A stretch of 60,801 bases of DNA from Aquabacterium sp. (lineage in GTDB: Bacteria; Pseudomonadota; Gammaproteobacteria; Burkholderiales; Burkholderiaceae_C). The stretch is from NCBI RefSeq assembly GCF_014378415.1, contig NZ_JACMNS010000018.1, positions 1 to 60,801 on the forward strand, written 5' to 3'. The notes under the pieces are model-generated. The model was not told where the DNA came from, made no database searches, and saw only the letters and a program-made list of their open reading frames with translations. Positions 1,900-10,808 of the stretch are shown in pieces (positions within the stretch are counted from its first letter, which is position 1; each line of letters opens with the position of its first letter). The position numbers and the translations under genes were made by a program.

Positions 1900-4110
1900 T
1901 TAAGCCACTGGCGGCAAACGATCCAGCAGCTTGTCGAGCGTGATGGGGTAGTCGCGCACCCGCACACCGGTCGCGTTGTAGATGGCGTTGGCCACGGCGG
2001 CACCCAAGCCGCAAATGCCCAGCTCGCCGACGCCCTTGGCCTTCATGGGCGAAGAGATCGGGTCGGTCTCGTCCAGAAAGATCACGTCCTGATGGGGAAT
2101 GTCGGCATGCACGGGCACCTCGTAACCCGCCAGATCGTGGTTGACGAAAAAACCGTGGCGCTTGTCCACGGCGAGCTCTTCCATCAAGGCCGCTCCAACG
2201 CCCATGGTCATCGCACCGATCACCTGGCTACGCGCGCTCTTGGGGTTGAGGATGCGCCCGGCGGCACAAACGGCCAGCATGCGCCTGACCCGGATTTCGC
2301 CGGTGACCGCATCGACGCCAACCTCCACAAAGTGGGCGCCAAAAGTCGATTGTTGGTACTTCTTGTCGAGGTCGCCAAATTCGATGCTGTCCTCGACCAC
2401 CAGGCCATCTGCTCCGGCCGCCTCTGCGAGTGGAACCGCGCGATCACCGCTCTTGACCATGCCATCCGCGAACACCACATCCGGCGAGGTGATGCCGAGC
2501 TTCGCTGCCACGGTCTCGCGCAGCTTCATGCAAGCCGCGTAGACGCCCGACGTTGAGCTGTTCGCGCCCCACTGGCCACCAGAACCGGCCGACACCGGGT
2601 GGGCCGAGTCACCCAGTCGCACTGCCACCTGACTCAAAGGCACGCCCATCACCTCAGCAGCGGTTTGCGCGATGATGGTGTAAGAGCCGGTGCCGATGTC
2701 CGTCATGTCGGTCTCGACCGTGACCAGGCCCCGGTTGTCCAGGCGAACGCGGGCGCCCGACTTCATCACCACGTTGTTGCGAAAGGCCGCGGCCACGCCC
2801 ATGCCCACCAGCCAACGGCCATCGCGGACCTGGCCCACCTTGGCCTGGCGCTGACCCCAGCCGAAACGCTCAGCGCCAGTGCGCAGGCATTCGACCAAGC
2901 GACGTTGCGAGAAGGGGCGCCCGGGCTTTTCAGGGTCGACCTGCGTGTCGTTCAGCACCCGAAACTCGATGGGGTCAAGACCGAGCATTTCCGCCATTTC
3001 GTCCATCGCGATTTCGAGCGCCATCATGCCCGGCGCCTCGCCCGGCGCGCGCATCGCATTGCCCTCGGGCAGGTCCAGCACGGCCAGGCGTGTAGTCGTC
3101 AGGCGATTAGCGCCGGCGTACAACAGGCGGGTCTGGTTGACGGCGGTCTCTGGCTGCCCGTTCGGCAGATCGCCGGACCAGCTTTCATGGCCGATGGCGG
3201 TGATCTTGCCGTCTTTCGTGGCCCCAATGCGGATTCGCTGGATCGTCGCCGGGCGGTGTGTGGTGTTGTTGGCGATCAAGGGCCGCTGCAGCGCCACCTT
3301 GACCGGCCGCCGCGCCGCCCGCGCGCCCAAGGCGGCCAGGAGCGCATCGGCCCGCACGAACAGCTTGCCGCCAAAGCCTCCGCCAATGAAGGGCGAGACC
3401 AGGCGGACGTTGGCCTTGGGTATGCCCAAGGTCTTGGCGACGTCACCCACGCTCCACGCGATCATCTGGTTCGAGGTCCAGACCGTGAGCTTGTCACCCT
3501 TCCACGCTGCGGTTGAAGCGTGCGGCTCCATCATGGCGTGCGACTGATTGGGCGTGGTGTAGGTGGCATCAAGCTGCACGGGCGCCCCGGCGTATGCACT
3601 GACGAAATCACCCACCTTGGACTCGCGCGCCCCCCCGAAGTCCGAAGGCTTGGGCAGCTTGGCCGCGTCCTTTTCCTTGGCAAGGTCGAACTTGCCTGGC
3701 GAGCGCGCATAGTCGATTCGGATCAGTTGTGCTGCTGCGCGCGCCTGCTCGAAGGTGTTCGCCACCACCAGGGCCAACGCCTGGTGATAGTGCTGGATTT
3801 CGGGGCCGCCCAGCAGCGTGGCCGTGTTGAAATCACCTTTGCCCAGCTTGCCGGCATTGCGCGCGGTCACGATGGTGATCACGCCGGGCGCAGCGCGGGC
3901 CGCGCTCAAGTCCATCGAAGCGATGCGCCCTTTCGCGATGCCAGCGCCCACCACGTAGCCATAGGCGGCGTTGGGCGCGACGTCATGGCGTTCATAGGCA
4001 TAGGGCGCGCGACCCGAGGTTTTCAGCGGACCGTCGATGCGGTCTATCGGCTTGCCGATGACCTTGAGTTGGTCGATGGGGTTGGTCGTGGCGGGCGTGT
4101 CAAATTTCAT
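1900..4110 (-). CDS. paoC: Periplasmic aldehyde oxidoreductase, molybdenum-binding subunit PaoC
   Basis: Large catalytic subunit of a xanthine-oxidase-family molybdoenzyme that oxidises aldehydes to carboxylic acids. The start is the ATG at 4110 (MKFDTPATT); the frame stays open further upstream, but that part is the antisense of paoB. The 736 residues compare with about 732 in E. coli PaoC. Visible landmarks are FIGGGFGGKL (molybdopterin-binding loop), MRAPGEAPG, and KGVGELG near the C-terminus, with the catalytic Glu at about residue 696. There is no signal peptide; export would be with PaoA, which carries the Tat signal. The gene starts 2 bases after the paoB stop and is third in the operon. 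The expected cofactor is the cytosine-dinucleotide form of Moco (family knowledge). Confidence 0.92.
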   Translation of the reverse strand: MKFDTPATTNPIDQLKVIGKPIDRIDGPLKTSGRAPYAYERHDVAPNAAYGYVVGAGIAKGRIASMDLSAARAAPGVITIVTARNAGKLGKGDFNTATLLGGPEIQHYHQALALVVANTFEQARAAAQLIRIDYARSPGKFDLAKEKDAAKLPKPSDFGGARESKVGDFVSAYAGAPVQLDATYTTPNQSHAMMEPHASTAAWKGDKLTVWTSNQMIAWSVGDVAKTLGIPKANVRLVSPFIGGGFGGKLFVRADALLAALGARAARRPVKVALQRPLIANNTTHRPATIQRIRIGATKDGKITAIGHESWSGDLPNGQPETAVNQTRLLYAGANRLTTTRLAVLDLPEGNAMRAPGEAPGMMALEIAMDEMAEMLGLDPIEFRVLNDTQVDPEKPGRPFSQRRLVECLRTGAERFGWGQRQAKVGQVRDGRWLVGMGVAAAFRNNVVMKSGARVRLDNRGLVTVETDMTDIGTGSYTIIAQTAAEVMGVPLSQVAVRLGDSAHPVSAGSGGQWGANSSTSGVYAACMKLRETVAAKLGITSPDVVFADGMVKSGDRAVPLAEAAGADGLVVEDSIEFGDLDKKYQQSTFGAHFVEVGVDAVTGEIRVRRMLAVCAAGRILNPKSARSQVIGAMTMGVGAALMEELAVDKRHGFFVNHDLAGYEVPVHADIPHQDVIFLDETDPISSPMKAKGVGELGICGLGAAVANAIYNATGVRVRDYPITLDKLLDRLPPVA

Positions 4111-4112
4111 GG

Positions 4113-5063
4113 TCAGGTCCTCGCTTGGAGCAGCGCTGCGGCGAGCGAGCGCTCGGCCAGGAGCAACTTGAAGGCGTTGTCGTCGGTGGGCTGCGCGCCG
4201 GCCAGCAGTTGCGCCATCACTGCGGGGGCGCCACGGGGCATCGCTGCCTCGGCCGCTTCCATGCGCCAAGGCTTGTGCGCCACGCCGCCCAGGGCCACCC
4301 GCCCAGATCCATCGCGCTGCACGATGGCCGCCACGGACACGAGTGCAAAGGCGTACGAAGCGCGGTCACGCACTTTGCGGTAAATGTGGGTGCCACCCGC
4401 GGGCTTGGGGAGCGTGACCGAGGTGATCAGTTCGTCCTGCGCCAACGCTGTTTCAATGTGAGGCGTGTCGCCAGGCAGGCGGTAAAAATCAGCGATGGGA
4501 ATGACTCGCCTGGCGCCGTCGGGGCGCACGGTCTCGATGCTCGCATCCAGCACCCGCATGGCCACCGCCATGTCGCTGGGATGGGTCGCGATGCAGGCAT
4601 GGCTGGCCCCGATCACGGCGTGCTGGCGCGTGATGCCGCCGATGGCGCTGCAACCGCTGCCAGGCAAGCGCTTGTTGCAGGGCTGATCAGTGTCATAAAA
4701 ATAGGCGCAACGGGTGCGTTGCAGCAGGTTGCCCGCCGTCGTGGCTTTGTTGCGAAGCTGGCCTGAGGCGCCAGACAACAATGCGCGCGACAGCACCGCA
4801 TGGTCGCGCCGCACGCGTGGGTCGGCCGCCAGGTCGGTGTTGCGCACCAAAGCGCCGATGCGCAAGCCGCCTTCAGGCGTCGCCTCGATCTTGTCCACTG
4901 CCAGGCCGTTGACGTCAACCAGGTGCGTCGGCGCCTCAATCTGGAGCTTCATCAGGTCGAGCAGGTTGGTGCCACCAGCGATGAACTTGGCACCGGGGTG
5001 CCGGGCCACGGCCGCAGCGGCTTCGGCGGGGGATGTCACCCGCTCGTAGGTGAAGGGTTTCAT
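4113..5063 (-). CDS. paoB: Aldehyde oxidoreductase FAD-binding subunit PaoB
   Basis: Middle subunit of the PaoABC complex, passing electrons from the Mo and Fe-S centres to FAD. The N-terminal half is a PCMH-type FAD domain with [13 protein letters not shown] at residues 27-39, and the C-terminal part is a CO-dehydrogenase flavoprotein-like domain. Cysteines at 119, 129, 138 and 157 lie in the region where E. coli PaoB binds an additional 4Fe-4S cluster, and their retention suggests the same cluster here (inference). Length is 316 residues against about 318 in E. coli. It overlaps paoA by 4 bases (ATGA), so it is translationally coupled. Confidence 0.92.
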
Positions 5064-5707
5064 GCCTGAGCTCCCGCGACCTCGGTGATCGCATCCACGA
5101 TGTTGGAATAGGCGCCGCAGCGGCAGATGTTGCCGCTCATGCGCTCGCGCAACTCTTCAGCCGACAGGATGGGTCGCGCGGTGAGGTCCGCGCTCACATG
5201 GCTGGGAACACCGCGCTTGATTTCATCCAGCACACTCACTGCAGAACAGATCTGCCCCGGGGTGCAATAACCGCACTGGTAGCCGTCGTACTTGACGAAG
5301 GCGGCCTGCATGGGATGCGAACGCTGTGGGTTGCCCAACCCTTCGATGGTGGTGACCTGCGCGCCTTCGTGCATGACCGCCAGCGTCAGGCATGAGTTAA
5401 TGCGCCGACCATCCACGATCACCGTGCAGGCACCGCATTGCCCGTGGTCGCAGCCTTTTTTGGTGCCGGTCAGGTGCAGGTGTTCGCGCAGCGCGTCGAG
5501 CAAGGTCGTGCGCGTATCCAGCGCCAAGGCATGGGCTTGGCCATTGATGTTCAGTGAAACTTTTGCCAAGGGCGTCGGTAAATCCGACACTGGCGCTCGT
5601 TCTCCAGCCGTGGCCGGCGGTGCGGTCACGGCAGCCGCCGAGGCAGCCCCCGCGATGAGCAAGTCGCGTCGCGAGATGGTCGCGTCCAAGTCGAAAGGGT
5701 TGTCCAT
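5060..5707 (-). CDS. paoA: Aldehyde oxidoreductase 2Fe-2S subunit PaoA with Tat signal
   Basis: First gene of the operon. Residues 11-38 form a twin-arginine signal (SRRDLLIAG followed by an Ala-rich segment), which would export the folded heterotrimer to the periplasm. The plant-type ferredoxin domain carries Cys86, Cys91, Cys94 and Cys106. The helical second 2Fe-2S domain carries CGYC (Cys145, Cys148) and CRC (Cys195, Cys197). All eight ligands of the xanthine-oxidase small-subunit family are present. The length of 215 residues is close to the family norm. Transcription starts in the 99-base gap shared with the divergent acyltransferase operon. No paoD-type cofactor-insertion chaperone gene is visible in the neighbourhood. 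Confidence 0.93.
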
Positions 5708-5806: not shown

Positions 5807-6676
5807 ATGCCTGCCGCCTCGTCGCCGTTAATCGATACGCTCACGGAGATCAACATCGTCGATTTGCTGGATTCAATCGGCCTGTTGCGTTTTCAAGGCA
5901 CGCCTTTGCGCCAGCTTTTTCGGCCTGCGGCACGCCGCTTTGCCCGCACAGCGAATGAGTTCGACAACCGCGTGGGCGACCACGGCCTGGCGCAAGGCAG
6001 CGCCTGGTTGATGGGCCAGATGACGGCTGGCGTGCGCACCTCTGGCCTGGAGCACATCCCGGCTCAGGGCCCCGTTTTCATCCTGGCCAACCACCCGGGC
6101 ATGACCGACACGGTGGCACTTTTTGCCAGCCTGGCGTCGCGCCCTGATTTGCGGGTGATTGCCCTGGATCGCCCATTCCTGCGGGCCTTGCCCCATGTCG
6201 CGCGGCAATTGATCTTCTTGCCCGATGAAGAATCCGGGCGCATGGCCGTGGTCCGCGCCGGCGCCAAACACCTCAAGGATGGTGGCGCCCTGTTGACCTT
6301 CCCGGCCGGAGAGATCGAACCCGACCCCGCCACCTTTGGCTCGCGACGGGCAGTGGCGTCTTTGCAGAATTGGTCCAGCAGTTATGCCCTGTTCGCCCGC
6401 CTGGCGCCCCAAACGCAGTTTGTGCCGGCGCTGGTGAGCCACGTCATCTCACCCGCGGCACAGCGCCATCCGCTCACGCTGTTGCGCCGCACGGCACAAC
6501 AGAAAGAGAAGCTGGCAGCAGCGTTGCAAGTGGCCTTGCCACGCTACCGCGACCTGGTCGCCAGGGTGACCTTTGGCGCACCGCTGACAGCCGATCAAAG
6601 CGATGCGAAGGCGCTCGGTGCTTGCGTCACAGCGCAGATGCGGCAACTCATCCTGGCGCAAGGATCGGTGGCCTGA
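5807..6676 (+). CDS. PlsC-type acyltransferase
   Basis: Glycerol-3-phosphate/lysophosphatidate acyltransferase-fold protein of 289 residues. The first signature motif is NHPGMTD, with the HX4D pair at His96 and Asp101. The substrate-phosphate motif is FPAGEIEPD at 165-173, a variant of the usual FPEGTRS in which the Arg is missing. There is no strong transmembrane helix, so it is probably peripheral to the inner membrane. It starts the six-gene operon at 5807-10808; its stop abuts the next ATG directly (TGAATG). The acyl acceptor cannot be read from the sequence. Because it is coupled to putative pterin and glycosyl enzymes, it may acylate a small molecule instead of a phospholipid (speculative). 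Confidence 0.8.
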   Translation: MPAASSPLIDTLTEINIVDLLDSIGLLRFQGTPLRQLFRPAARRFARTANEFDNRVGDHGLAQGSAWLMGQMTAGVRTSGLEHIPAQGPVFILANHPGMTDTVALFASLASRPDLRVIALDRPFLRALPHVARQLIFLPDEESGRMAVVRAGAKHLKDGGALLTFPAGEIEPDPATFGSRRAVASLQNWSSSYALFARLAPQTQFVPALVSHVISPAAQRHPLTLLRRTAQQKEKLAAALQVALPRYRDLVARVTFGAPLTADQSDAKALGACVTAQMRQLILAQGSVA

Positions 6677-7672
6677 ATGGCCGAGACCCTTGCCCAAGCC
6701 TGTTGGCTGACCGAACCCGGCCACGCCGAGTTGCGCACCGAGACTTTGCCGGAGCCGGGGCCTGATCAAGTGCTGGTCAGGGCCCTGCACAGTGGCATCA
6801 GCCGAGGCACGGAAACCTTGGTGTTTCGCGGCGAGGTGCCCGCCAGCGAGTTTGAGCGCATGCGCGCGCCGTTTCAGGCAGGCGACTTCCCCGCGCCCGT
6901 GAAGTATGGCTACAACAGCGTGGGCCTGGTCGAGCAAGGCCCCGCCCATTTGCTGGGGCGCACGGTGTTCTGCCTGTATCCACATCAAACCCACTATGTG
7001 GTGCCCGCCACCGCCGTGCACCTGCTGCCACAAGGCGTGCCGCCTGCGCGGGCGGTGCTGGCAGCCAATGTGGAAACGGCCGTCAATGCCCTGTGGGATG
7101 CGGCCCCTCGTTTGGGTGACCGCATCGCCGTGGTCGGAGGTGGCACCGTGGGCCTGCTGGTGGCCTGGCTGGCGGCGCGCCTGCCCGGCTGCCAGGTTCA
7201 GTTGGTGGACACGAACGAGGCCAGGCGTGCTGTCGCCGAACAACTCCATGTGGACTTTGCGTTGCCCGATGCCGCACGTGACGAGGCCGATCTGGTGATC
7301 CATGCCAGCGGGCAATCTGCAGGCTTGGCCACGGCCCTCAGCCTGGCCGCCTTCGAGGCCACGGTGCTGGAGCTGAGCTGGTATGGCGAGCGCCCGGTGA
7401 ACGTGCCGCTGGGCGGTGCTTTTCACTCGCGCAGGCTCACCCTCAAAAGTTCGCAAGTGGGCCAGGTGGCGACCGCGCAGCGCGCTCGCTGGAGCCACCG
7501 CCGGCGCTTCGAGCTGGCCTTGTCACTGCTGAATGACCCCGTGCTGGATGCCTTGATCACCGACGCCGCGCCCTTTGCCGCCTTGCCTGAAGTGCTGGCC
7601 CGCCTGTCGGCATCGATCACCGACACCACCTTGTGCCACCGCATCGATTATTCGCAGCACCCCGCCGAATGA
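6677..7672 (+). CDS. MDR-family dehydrogenase lacking the catalytic zinc ligands
   Basis: Medium-chain dehydrogenase/reductase of 331 residues with an N-terminal GroES-like domain and a Rossmann nucleotide-binding domain ([10 protein letters not shown] around residues 152-161). The usual catalytic zinc Cys is replaced (SGISRGTE at 39-46) and the GHE zinc/proton-relay motif reads YGYNSVG at 77-83. It therefore probably acts without catalytic zinc, as in BchC-like members. The likely reaction is NAD(P)H-dependent reduction or oxidation of an alcohol or ketone side chain. Upstream it follows the acyltransferase with no gap. Downstream its TGA overlaps the next ATG by 4 bases. Automatic pipelines would call it a zinc-binding alcohol dehydrogenase, which the missing ligands contradict. 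Confidence 0.8.
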
Positions 7673-8463
7673 CAACCCTGACCTCACCCTCCGGCAACGA
7701 AGCCGACTGGCAAGTCTTGCTGCGGGGAGAAGAGACCGGCGTGATCGATGGCGAATCCATCATCCAAATGCTCTACGGCCCGCTCTGCGCCAAGCGGCGA
7801 CAGGGCTCCTTCGTGGTCGGGCATCTGGCGCAAAGCCTGGATGGACGCATTGCCACCACCTGCGGTGTCTCGCGCTGGATCAGCGGCCAGGAAGACCTGC
7901 TCCACACCCACCGCATGCGGGCCATCGCGGACGCCGTCATCGTGGGCGCCAACACGGTCCTGCACGATGACCCCCAACTCACGGTGCGCCTGTGCTCGGG
8001 CAACAACCCGGTGCGGGTGGTGCTAGACCCAGAGCACCGGCTCGATCGCCGCCAGCGTGTCTTTCTCGATGACAGCGCGCCCACCCTCTTGCTCGTCGCC
8101 GCCGACCGCGCGGGGGCTGAGCGCCAATGGGGCCAAGCCGAGGTGATCCCGGTGCCACGCGGCCAGCAGGGCCTGGACCCCTTCGAGATCCGCCGGATCT
8201 TGGCTCTGCGCGGACTGTCATGGCTGTTCGTCGAAGGCGGCGGCATCACGGTATCCCGCTTCCTGGCCGCAGGTGCGCTCGACCGCCTGCAGATCACCGT
8301 GGCCCCCGTCATCCTAGGATCAGGCCGTCCCAGCCTGGTGCTGCCGGAAATCCACGATCTGACGCACAGCCTGCGCCCTCGCACACGCCGCTTCCAACTG
8401 GGTGAGGACACCATGATCGAATGCGACTTCACCTCCGACTTCGCCCCCGCCACCCACCACTAA
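7669..8463 (+). CDS. RibD C-terminal-type reductase (dihydrofolate-reductase fold)
   Basis: 264-residue protein with the RibD C-terminal/DHFR-like fold, which in riboflavin synthesis reduces the ribosyl group of a pyrimidine intermediate with NADPH. Visible elements are [11 protein letters not shown] at 52-62, [21 protein letters not shown] (substrate/NADPH loop, about 88-107, shown in pieces), NPVRVVLD, and the NADPH-binding [11 protein letters not shown]. The N-terminal zinc deaminase domain of full RibD is absent, so this is not the housekeeping bifunctional enzyme. Its start at 7669 overlaps the preceding stop (ATGA), which favours it over an in-frame upstream start at 7633. The operon context points to a pterin- or flavin-related reduction. 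Confidence 0.82.
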
Positions 8464-8479
8464 AAACTCATCCATCACC

Positions 8480-8884
8480 ATGTACAGCCTTGCCGTCTCT
8501 GATCATTTCATGATCGCCCACAGTTTCCGCGGCGAAGTTTTCGGCCCGGCCCAGCAACTCCACGGCGCGACCTACAACGTCGAGATCGATTTCCGCCGCC
8601 CGACACTGGACCAGCACGGGCTGGTGTGCGACATCGGCCTGGCCTTGCAGGTGCTGCGCGAAGTGCTGGGCGAGTTCAACTACAAGAACCTGGATGAGCT
8701 GCCGCAGTTCAAGGGCCGCAACACGACCACCGAGTTGCTCGCCGGTGAGATCTTTGCCCGCGTGAAGGCCCGTGTGGCCGAAGGCGCGGTGGGGCCTGGC
8801 ACGGCAGGCGAGCTGGCATCGCTGCGGGTCGTCCTGCGGGAATCGCCCGTCGCCTGGGCCAGCTTTGAGGGCGCGCTGCGCTGA
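8480..8884 (+). CDS. Divergent 6-pyruvoyl-tetrahydropterin synthase/QueD-family protein
   Basis: 134-residue T-fold protein, the usual length for the PTPS/QueD family. It retains an AHSF His and an LHG His, which align with two of the three zinc histidines. The third ligand of the family's HGH is Ala (LHGAT). The catalytic Cys between these motifs is absent, and the family's LDHxxLN relay reads FNYKNLDE. A C-terminal LRES Glu, the position that anchors the pterin ring in this family, is kept. It is therefore probably a pterin- or deazapurine-binding enzyme with altered chemistry, and should not be annotated as a true QueD. It lies 16 bases after the RibD-like gene and overlaps the glycosyltransferase start by 1 base (TGATG). 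Confidence 0.78.
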   Translation: MYSLAVSDHFMIAHSFRGEVFGPAQQLHGATYNVEIDFRRPTLDQHGLVCDIGLALQVLREVLGEFNYKNLDELPQFKGRNTTTELLAGEIFARVKARVAEGAVGPGTAGELASLRVVLRESPVAWASFEGALR

Positions 8885-9933
8885 TGGCTTTGGCTTTTCT
8901 GGTGCCCGGGCGGCTCGATCAGCTCACGGGTGGATACCTCTACGACCGCCACATCGTCGAAGGCCTGCGTGCGCGCGGCCAAACGGTCGATGTCGTGGAG
9001 CTGCCCGGGCAGTATCCGCAGGCCGATGTGCCCACCCGTGCATCCGCCGCAGCCGCACTCGCCCAACTGCCAGACCGCAGCACGGTCATCATTGATGGAC
9101 TGGCATTGCCTGGCCTCGCTGATTGCTTGCAGGCAGAGGCCACCCGCTTGAACCTGGTGGGCCTCATCCACCATCCACTGTCCCGGGAAACCGGGCTGGA
9201 TGCGGCCAGCGCACGCCAATGCGCCAAGCTTGAGGCCGAACTCTGGCCACGCCTGAAGGGCGCCATCTGCCCCAGCGAACACACGGCCGGTGCGCTCTTG
9301 GCGGCAGGCCTGCCAGCGGATCGGGTGGCGGTGGTCACCCCTGGCACTCACCGCCCCCCGGCCATCGCCAGAGCAACAAGAGGGGGGCCACTGCAACTGC
9401 TGGCGGTGGGCACCATCACGCCGCGCAAAGGCCACCTGCTGTTGATCGACGCCCTGGCTCAGTTGCCTCACCTGGGCTGGCAACTGACCTGCATCGGCAG
9501 CCTGACGAGGGACCCTGCCACCTCAGCTGCACTGCAAGAGCGCATCGTTGCCCATGGCCTTGGCGAGCGCATCGCGCTGCTGGGTGAGCAAGCCGCCGAG
9601 CGGCTGGCCCAGGCCTACCAGAGTGCCGATCTCTTCGTGCTGCCGTCGTACCATGAGGGGTATGGCATGGTCTTCGCCGAGGCACTGGCCCACGGGCTGC
9701 CGATCATCGCGACCACGGCCGTCGCCATGGTGGACACGGTGCCGGCTGAGGCCTCGCTGCTCGTGCCGCCGGGCGACCTGCCTGCTCTGCGCGATGCCCT
9801 TGAGCAGGCCCTGAGCGATCGCGCCCTGCGTGCACGGCTGTCGGCCGCAGCGCAGCAAGCTGCTCGCACACTGCCCGACTGGGACGGCACTGTGCTGAGC
9901 TGGATGGCCGCGCTCAACAAGGTGAGCCGATGA
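8884..9933 (+). CDS. GT4-family glycosyltransferase
   Basis: 349-residue retaining glycosyltransferase with the GT-B fold. The N-terminal acceptor domain opens with FLVPGRLDQLTGGYLYDRH, in which the GG lies in the nucleotide-sugar loop region. The C-terminal donor domain shows VGTITPRKGH and the EX7E motif in HEGYGMVFAEALAHG. No signal peptide or membrane segment is visible, so it should be cytosolic and transfer a sugar from an NDP-sugar to a soluble or membrane-surface acceptor. In cyanobacteria, GT4-type enzymes glucosylate tetrahydrobiopterin; the PTPS-like neighbour makes a comparable role plausible (inference). It overlaps the methyltransferase by 4 bases (ATGA). Confidence 0.87.
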   Translation: MALAFLVPGRLDQLTGGYLYDRHIVEGLRARGQTVDVVELPGQYPQADVPTRASAAAALAQLPDRSTVIIDGLALPGLADCLQAEATRLNLVGLIHHPLSRETGLDAASARQCAKLEAELWPRLKGAICPSEHTAGALLAAGLPADRVAVVTPGTHRPPAIARATRGGPLQLLAVGTITPRKGHLLLIDALAQLPHLGWQLTCIGSLTRDPATSAALQERIVAHGLGERIALLGEQAAERLAQAYQSADLFVLPSYHEGYGMVFAEALAHGLPIIATTAVAMVDTVPAEASLLVPPGDLPALRDALEQALSDRALRARLSAAAQQAARTLPDWDGTVLSWMAALNKVSR

Positions 9934-10808
9934 CTGGATTCTCGGCAGACTGGCTGCGCCAGCGCGAACCGTTCGACCTGGCCGCGCGCCACCAAACGCT
10001 CGCCCTCCAGTTTCGAGAAGCGCTGACACCGCGGCCCCCTCAGTCAGCCTTGCGCATTCTGGACCTGGCCTCTGGATCGGGCGCGAACTTCCGGGCGTTG
10101 GCCCCTGTGTTGCAAACCGACCAGGAGTGGCTCATGGTCGATCACGACCCCCTGCTGCTGGCGGCACAACGCACCGAAATCGCCCGGTGGGCGGCCCAGC
10201 ATGGCTGGCACTGCCAAGATCAGGAAGGCGCGCTCTCGATCCACGTTGGCACGGCCCGCTGGCTGGTCCGCGGCCAGCAACTTGACCTGGCCCGCGACCT
10301 CGAAAGCATCGACCTGGCTTCATGCGACGGCCTCGTCACCACCGCGTTTCTGGACCTGGTGTCTGCCGCCTGGCTGGATCGGCTGAGCGCGCTGCTAATG
10401 CGGACCCACCGCCCCCTGCTGGCCACCTTGACCGTGGACGGTCGACGTACCTGGTCGCCAGGCAGGCCCGCCGACTACCTTGTGGCTGACGCCTTCTTGT
10501 CCCACCAGGGTAGCGACAAGGGCTTTGGCCCCTCGCTGGGCGCGCGGGCAACACCCCATCTGGCCGCGGGTCTGGCCAAAGTGGGCTACCAGGTCAGCAC
10601 CCAAACCAGCGATTGGACCATCGGCCAGGAACACCGTGAAATGCTGCTGACCATGGCCCGAGAAGCGGCTGGCGTGGCCATCGAAGCAGAGCCGACCAAC
10701 GCACCCGCCGTGTCCGCCTGGTTGGCCGAAAAATTGGCCGATATTCAACAGGGCTTGCTGTCGCTGAACGTTGGTCACCTGGATTTGCTGGCCGTGCCTG
10801 CCGTGTAA
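9930..10808 (+). CDS. Class I SAM-dependent methyltransferase
   Basis: 292-residue protein with SAM-binding motif I LRILDLASGSGANF (about 41-54) and an acidic motif II in MVDHDP. It is the last gene of the operon, coupled to the glycosyltransferase by an ATGA overlap. The acceptor cannot be deduced. In this context it most likely methylates the same small molecule that the neighbouring reductases and glycosyltransferase act on. It ends 20 bases before the convergent HMA-like small gene, with no obvious terminator between them. Confidence 0.83.
   Translation: MTGFSADWLRQREPFDLAARHQTLALQFREALTPRPPQSALRILDLASGSGANFRALAPVLQTDQEWLMVDHDPLLLAAQRTEIARWAAQHGWHCQDQEGALSIHVGTARWLVRGQQLDLARDLESIDLASCDGLVTTAFLDLVSAAWLDRLSALLMRTHRPLLATLTVDGRRTWSPGRPADYLVADAFLSHQGSDKGFGPSLGARATPHLAAGLAKVGYQVSTQTSDWTIGQEHREMLLTMAREAAGVAIEAEPTNAPAVSAWLAEKLADIQQGLLSLNVGHLDLLAVPAV

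Follow-up and report, generated by a model that had tools for sequence, protein, structure and literature searches.

A six-gene operon of Aquabacterium sp., carried in the 60,801-nucleotide stretch of DNA analysed here (contig NZ_JACMNS010000018.1 of assembly GCF_014378415.1; hereafter the window), is, as judged by sequence comparison, one variant of a conserved biosynthetic locus that is still uncharacterised. On balance, the operon probably encodes one form of a dedicated pathway that leaves riboflavin synthesis at its first steps and leads to a tailored, membrane-tied dihydropterin. The six open reading frames (ORFs) lie head to tail on the + strand between positions 5807 and 10808, and ORF and sequence checks agreed with the positions and junctions first drawn for them in a note made from the sequence alone (the original prediction). 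They are:

5807..6676, + strand: PlsC-like acyltransferase, 289 amino acids; PF01553, 25.4 bits (cut-off 23)
6677..7672, + strand: zinc-less medium-chain dehydrogenase/reductase (MDR), BchC-like, 331 amino acids; ADH_zinc_N below cut-off, predicted fold matches
7669..8463, + strand: RibD C-terminal-type reductase (RibD-C), 264 amino acids, no deaminase domain; RibD_C, 133.4 bits
8480..8884, + strand: PTPS-IV (FGPAQ) protein, 134 amino acids; PTPS, 85.9 bits, and a match to 3d7j
8884..9933, + strand: family 4 glycosyltransferase (GT4), 349 amino acids; Glycos_transf_1, 100.9 bits
9930..10808, + strand: class I S-adenosylmethionine (SAM) methyltransferase, 292 amino acids; predicted structure and Foldseek

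The acyltransferase stop at 6676 directly abuts the MDR start at 6677. The MDR and RibD-C genes overlap by 4 bases (7669-7672), a 16-base gap (8464-8479) precedes the PTPS-IV gene, and the last two junctions are overlaps of 1 base (at 8884) and 4 bases (9930-9933). For RibD-C the ATG at 7669 was chosen as the start; the longest ORF opens at a GTG at 7633. Scores exceeded the Pfam cut-offs for Acyltransferase, RibD_C, PTPS and Glycos_transf_1, and stayed under them for the MDR and the methyltransferase. Promoter and terminator scans returned nothing useful.

Linkage of these genes was scored in an even sample of 398 Pseudomonadota genomes, the Aquabacterium genome among them, which is free of similarity-selection bias. 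Matches to the PTPS-IV protein (E <= 1e-20) and to the window MDR (E <= 1e-30) fell in the identical 27 genomes and were mutually adjacent in all 27. The surroundings in the other 26 genomes, scored with profiles built for this analysis, contained a core of MDR (26), GT4 (25), methyltransferase (24) and RibD-C (22) genes. Recurring partners were a CDP-alcohol phosphatidyltransferase (CDP-OH, 12), a flippase-like LPG_synthase_TM protein (11), GTP cyclohydrolase II (GCHII, 11), a family 2 glycosyltransferase (GT2, 10), FkbM (8), cytochrome b561 (7), creatininase (6), YceI (4), a sulfatase-family protein (3) and PfkB (1). As a control, neighbourhoods of about equal size were taken around 20 QueD-like matches that we picked; none of the 20 held any cluster partner. 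Because the MDR gene adjoins the PTPS-IV gene in all 26 of these other genomes and the controls lack partners altogether, the grouping exceeds chance. G014 and G025 were left out of the control; both belong to the window's genus, and each has a further QueD-like gene near its PTPS-IV cluster, at ∼9 kb (G014:C29) and ∼12 kb (G025:C74).

A larger, similarity-chosen set comprised 114 loci: the window, 92 genome loci and 21 plasmid loci. Eighty genome-contig loci were the best 80, by similarity to the window, of at least 569 relatives; L048 and L051, the same records as L036 and L040, were excluded, and 21 of 23 plasmid records were used, leaving out H12 and H16 (second records of M. trichosporium OB3b and S. 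anthocyanicus). Neighbours were called by codon-scored ORFs and by profile searches on stop-to-stop frames, and partners were counted within 11 kb; contig ends truncate some loci, and 86 of the 114 have 8 kb on each side (full loci). MDR was found in 109 of these loci, GT4 in 106, methyltransferase in 102, RibD in 88, CDP-OH in 65 and GCHII in 38, followed by the flippase-like protein (34), sulfatase (32), FkbM (29), GT2 (28), creatininase (27), YceI (22), cytochrome b561 (15), acyltransferase (8), PfkB (2) and GTP cyclohydrolase III (GCHIII, 1). The order MDR-PTPS-GT4-methyltransferase is kept in 97/114 loci and in 23/26 of the even sample. Among the five core proteins, pairwise distances correlate with r of 0.63-0.84, a level reached in 0 of 200 permutations (shared ancestry ignored), which fits joint inheritance. 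The conserved linkage supports the original prediction that the six genes work as a single unit on a GTP-derived heterocycle and tailor it with glycosyl and methyl groups. The groupings that it described for other Proteobacteria and Actinobacteria were found in genome and plasmid neighbourhoods, and the outcome that it had named as fatal to itself, genes unlinked elsewhere, did not occur.

By its residues the window PTPS-like protein is a member of the PTPS-IV (FGPAQ) subfamily of COG0720. Its only strong solved relative is 3d7j (SCO6650 of Streptomyces coelicolor; E 6.3e-42, whole length), and the FGPAQ signature is present in the window protein and exact in 108/114 relatives. His14 and His28 are kept in 114/114 relatives, Glu85 in 114/114 and Glu121 in 113/114. 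In the HGH motif, Ala takes the place of the second His in 111/114 (HGA), and the QueD Asp67-His68 pair is replaced by Asn (100/114) and by Tyr or Phe (100/114). The three relatives with His at the second position are all haloarchaeal: the PTPS-IV-like proteins of plasmid loci L140, L156 and L157 retain this zinc His as HSH. At the position of the PTPS-I motif Cys, relatives carry Ala (111/114) or Glu (3/114); since 21 control QueD-like proteins, which retain HGH and Asp-His, have Ser there, loss of the Cys is not special to PTPS-IV. PTPS-IV retains ring-binding residues and has lost those of the PTPS lyase. The structure paper on SCO6650 reportedly found the pterin-binding residues in place but neither zinc, nor the triad, nor PTPS activity, and the sequences compared here agree. 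In its available part, PMC5445326 (2017) gives FGPAQ as the mark of PTPS-IV and lists PF00925 and PF01872 in PTPS-IV neighbourhoods, describing PF00925 as FolE2; the Pfam name of PF00925 is GTP cyclohydrolase II, not FolE2. Both families recur in the relatives' loci, and in the window RibD-C is adjacent to PTPS-IV, and the operon contains no PF00925 gene.

The PTPS/QueD fold, together with the two QueD copies near clusters of the window's genus, could be taken to point to a side branch of queuosine or deazapurine synthesis with a misplaced QueD. This reading is scarcely credible. The curated QueD model scores 43.7 bits on the window protein against a cut-off of 89.25, the CxxxHGH and catalytic Asp-His signature of QueD and PTPS-I is missing from the PTPS-IV protein, a different gene of the window genome is QueD-like (108 bits), and the cluster partners belong to the riboflavin branch. 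The deazapurine-like product considered in the original prediction is accordingly disfavoured by the QueD score.

The precursor is likely a riboflavin-branch aminopyrimidine rather than FolE-derived dihydroneopterin, because riboflavin-type cyclohydrolases join the loci and no cluster has FolE nearby on its own contig. The clustered GCHII proteins keep the three zinc Cys in 38/38 loci of the larger set and 11/11 of the even sample. On a plasmid of Haloarcula sp. GH36, GCHIII (PF05165, 272.6 bits) adjoins the MDR gene in place of GCHII; GCHIII is of a different family and catalyses the same entry step. The original prediction had drawn the precursor from the FolE or RibA pools, and of these the RibA source is borne out by the linkage and the FolE source is not. 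A tetrahydropterin glycoside made from FolE-derived dihydroneopterin phosphate, resembling the cyanobacterial glucoside and with RibD-C as a dihydropterin reductase, would account for the PTPS fold and the GT4 gene, and FolE is present in 26/27 cluster genomes. We nevertheless regard it as improbable: FolE lies on the cluster's contig in 10 of these genomes and never nearer than ∼95 kb (in 16 it is on other contigs, where distance is unmeasurable), GCHII and once GCHIII join the loci instead, PTPS-IV is without the Asp-His pair and has lost one zinc His, and similarity of the GT4 protein to the cyanobacterial enzyme BGluT is weak.

The window genome itself has three GCHII homologues. A RibA-type copy on C165 keeps the zinc Cys and Tyr105, a RibBA copy has Cys that do not align at the zinc positions, and G000:C130:2180-2614 (-) is divergent (51 bits; also L132). 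Two genes from the latter lies what we take to be a uracil phosphoribosyltransferase-like gene, and this homologue is perhaps of a pyrimidine-degradation type.

Profile searches of 140 loci found no RibB, RibH or RibE, with one weak deaminase-like match, and the RibB motif occurs in 0 of 38 clustered GCHII ORFs, which suggests an early exit from the riboflavin route. Many clustered GCHII proteins have an N-terminal stretch of ∼150-180 residues that starts like RibB, without RibB motif or Pfam match (for example L148:6703-7809 (-) and L099:13899-15116 (+)); it is perhaps a dead RibB half. The same absences make it very unlikely that the locus is a second riboflavin or flavin branch serving secretion or internal use, which would also leave MDR, PTPS-IV, GT4 and the methyltransferase unexplained, even though GCHII, RibD-C and creatininase-type formamidase genes (compare BrbF in the available part of PMC9478397) would all fit such a branch. 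A deazaflavin (F420-type) branch is very unlikely indeed. GCHII- and RibD-type early steps are common to F420 synthesis, which speaks for it, as does unpublished work cited in the available part of PMC5041015 that places PTPS-IV in archaeal F420 synthesis. With CofH in only 1/27 cluster genomes, this archaeal role does not fit the bacteria at hand, and neither CofC nor CofH was found in the window genome (92.5% complete).

Creatininase accompanies GCHII in 20 of 23 cases among the 86 full loci, and in 4 of 6 in the even sample, where the association is not significant. In work on SCO6655, which is said to form the formyl intermediate, Tyr105 of GCHII (a numbering that we take to follow E. coli) reportedly governs deformylation. 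In the clustered GCHII proteins, position 105 is Met only in L139 and L146, both Streptomyces plasmids with creatininase; Tyr105 is found in the other 36/38, 19 with and 17 without creatininase, and in 11/11 even-sample copies, 4 of them with creatininase. A table in the available part of PMC2853524 lists SCO6655 as GTP cyclohydrolase II, and BrbF, a creatininase-annotated protein of Sinorhizobium, has been proven to deformylate the GTP cyclohydrolase intermediate (PMC9478397, available part). By analogy, such a role would fit the two Met105 plasmids and not the 19 creatininase loci with Tyr105, which rule out creatininase as a universal deformylase of the GCHII intermediate.

RibD-C belongs to its family by a RibD_C score of 133.4 bits against a cut-off of 24.1, and falls narrowly below the cut-off of TIGR00227, the NCBIfam ribD_Cterm model (147.1 bits; cut-off 150.15). 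Its best PDB match, 6p8c (E 3.9e-28), is a 2,5-diamino-6-ribosylamino-pyrimidinone 5'-phosphate reductase, which acts before deamination. The MDR protein scores 26.2 bits with Pfam ADH_zinc_N, under the cut-off of 31.8; its predicted structure (pLDDT 93.6) has MDR dehydrogenase folds as best matches. As the original prediction held, it is zinc-less, because no Cys column reaches 95% conservation in 109 relatives; two columns have Cys in 96/109, and the conserved zinc-ligand Cys of zinc-dependent MDR enzymes were not found. The best curated model is BchC (64.5 bits over residues 7-250, against a cut-off of 291.25). BchC is a chlorophyllide hydroxyethyl dehydrogenase.

The same cyclohydrolase and RibD-C evidence would fit equally well a product with no pteridine ring, a glycosylated and methylated ribitylamino-pyrimidine (nucleoside-like) conjugate whose pyrimidine ring PTPS-IV merely binds, and the absence of PTPS lyase residues is in keeping with it. 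We consider such a conjugate unlikely, as it offers no clear chemical task for MDR and PTPS-IV, the two most constant genes.

The best PDB match of the GT4 protein is the Tll1590 protein (6e-22). BGluT (5ze7) is a low-ranking match (E 2.6e-4, residues 174-322), so the analogy with cyanobacterial tetrahydrobiopterin glucosylation drawn in the original prediction is weak. The methyltransferase has no PDB match by sequence, and its scores with Pfam methyltransferase profiles all stay under the cut-offs. Foldseek matched its predicted structure (pLDDT 96.5) best to solved class I SAM methyltransferases (3mgg, E 1.7e-12), and, on this model, the last gene encodes a class I SAM methyltransferase with the Rossmann methyltransferase fold. 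GT4 and methyltransferase are fused in 9 ORFs of relatives, and therefore probably share one substrate molecule.

The acyltransferase has an intact H-x4-D motif (NHPGMTD), as have all 8 relatives found; its best curated models are OlsF and the lyso-glycine-lipid acyltransferase GlsA, far under their cut-offs. In the 8/114 loci that carry it, the gene lies directly upstream of MDR, and none of the 8 has CDP-OH or GT2. The flippase-like gene accompanies CDP-OH (11/11 in the even sample, 27/28 in full loci), and cytochrome b561 loci have GT2 in 6/7 and 7/14, respectively. CDP-OH occurs in one fusion each with YceI, sulfatase-family and FkbM domains, and creatininase in one with RibD. Mutual exclusion of CDP-OH and GT2 was not significant (p 0.086 in 86 loci; p 0.051 in 26 loci) and is not claimed. 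Because many loci add a CDP-OH transferase, flippase, GT2 or acyltransferase, a membrane-linked product is suggested, and the recurring lipid-type genes with the window acyltransferase lend support to the possible membrane link raised in the original prediction.

Taken together, the preferred reading, a branch from riboflavin's first steps to a dihydropterin, can be laid out as five putative steps. A riboflavin-branch GTP cyclohydrolase, linked to the locus in relatives and in the window genome presumably the intact RibA-type copy on C165, would supply 2,5-diamino-6-ribosylamino-4(3H)-pyrimidinone 5'-phosphate. RibD-C, to go by its family, would reduce the ribosyl to a ribityl chain; because the locus has no deaminase, the pterin 2-amino group would be retained. 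MDR may then oxidise the ribityl 2'-hydroxyl, and the ketone would close onto the 5-amino group to give a dihydropterin, with no need for GTP cyclohydrolase I. Taken alone, this ketone formation and ring closure, argued from chemistry, is tentative and may well be wrong. PTPS-IV would hold or complete the ring. GT4 would add a sugar and the methyltransferase a methyl group to the same molecule. Finally, a lipid-type enzyme would tie the product to the membrane; this would be the acyltransferase here and a CDP-alcohol phosphatidyltransferase or GT2 in other loci, in many cases alongside a flippase-like protein. A more elaborate version is possible, if rather unlikely: the locus would make an exported, lipid-anchored pterin-type redox cofactor by way of GCHII or GCHIII, RibD-C and MDR without GTP cyclohydrolase I, and would have spread horizontally among Proteobacteria, Actinomycetes and haloarchaea. 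The lipid-linking enzyme would differ between clades: a CDP-alcohol transferase plus flippase, a GT2, in many cases accompanied by cytochrome b561, or an acyltransferase. Outside the cytoplasm the cofactor would work with cytochrome b561, YceI and membrane sulfatase-family proteins, which would serve it there.

Several observations weigh against the riboflavin-branch dihydropterin pathway. The window has no cyclohydrolase gene. RibD is found in 88/114 loci and GCHII in only 38/114 within the counted distance, and creatininase, in 27/114, has no settled role. The bacterial RibD model scores 121 bits on RibD-C, above the 111.5 bits of the archaeal pre-deamination reductase model, so that reduction before deamination is not proven by the PDB match. 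Six of the 8 acyltransferase loci are from the window's genus. In the even sample, L219 and L220 have no methyltransferase, L228 no GT4, and L205, L209, L223 and L227 no RibD. MDR is missing from 5/114 loci: L073, which is at a contig start, L071, despite 10 kb upstream, and the Streptomyces plasmid loci L137, L138 and L147, in which PTPS-IV stands without MDR, GT4 or methyltransferase. Around the latter three, cupin, MBL-fold or BTAD-regulator genes recur, which gives PTPS-IV a second context.

The best 80 of the at least 569 relatives confirmed in the genome-contig scan are mostly from Beta-, Gamma- and Alphaproteobacteria, plus one or a few records each from Gemmatimonadetes/Gemmatimonadales, Acidobacteria and Nannocystaceae. 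Among the 23 plasmid records are those of Streptomyces, Microbacterium, Arthrobacter, Rhizobiaceae and three haloarchaea; most plasmid records label the PTPS-IV protein a 6-carboxytetrahydropterin (queuosine) synthase. The cluster is carried by plasmids of Streptomyces, Microbacterium and haloarchaea. Within the window's genus PTPS-IV occurs in 8 of 41 other genomes, in three layouts: the window's own order, acyltransferase-MDR-RibD-PTPS-GT4-methyltransferase (4 genomes); GCHII-GT2-RibD-MDR-PTPS (3 genomes, one cut after PTPS); and acyltransferase-MDR-PTPS-GT4-methyltransferase with RibD convergent (1 genome). This patchy occurrence suggests horizontal transfer. Beside the window cluster and divergent from it, three genes at 1900-5707 (-) presumably encode large, FAD and 2Fe-2S subunits of a molybdenum hydroxylase-like enzyme; neighbour clustering placed a large-subunit relative in 8 of the clustered loci.

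The locus was thus found in 26 of 397 sampled Pseudomonadota besides its own genome, as well as on the Streptomyces, Microbacterium and haloarchaeal plasmids, and probably represents a widely shared pathway from an early vitamin B2 building block to a sugar-bearing, perhaps membrane-attached, pterin-like molecule. If so, the first riboflavin intermediate feeds an unrecognised branch that ends in a glycosylated, probably membrane-linked heterocycle, which would be a novel cofactor or a novel type of lipid. There is a reasonable chance that the product belongs to a new class; specialised pathways initiated by a GTP cyclohydrolase are already known as a kind. A literature search, with most subscription papers outside it, turned up no description of the locus as a whole or of what it makes. 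As the prediction specifies a precursor, an order of first steps and cultured hosts, it makes the orphan PTPS-IV/SCO6650 family directly testable.

Known systems resemble parts of the locus. The early riboflavin and F420 routes use the identical enzyme families (GCHII or GCHIII, formamidase, RibD-C) that stand here beside PTPS-IV, but the loci are without RibB, RibH and RibE, and CofH is nearly absent from the cluster genomes. BchC supplies the top curated model for the window MDR, although the score is far from the cut-off and the gene context is unlike the window's. BGluT, the tetrahydrobiopterin glucosyltransferase, has the GT4 fold in common with the window protein, and its pterin acceptor is what we propose for the latter, whereas the similarity between the two is weak. 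Creatininase-family genes occur in the clustered loci as BrbF does in its pathway; none lies in the window operon, however, and most clustered GCHII proteins keep Tyr105, so that a second deformylating enzyme may be unneeded. SCO6650 is like the window protein along its entire length, and the neighbourhoods described for PTPS-IV in PMC5445326 are the nearest published counterpart, differing from the locus here in that the available part of that paper does not mention MDR, GT4, methyltransferase or lipid genes.

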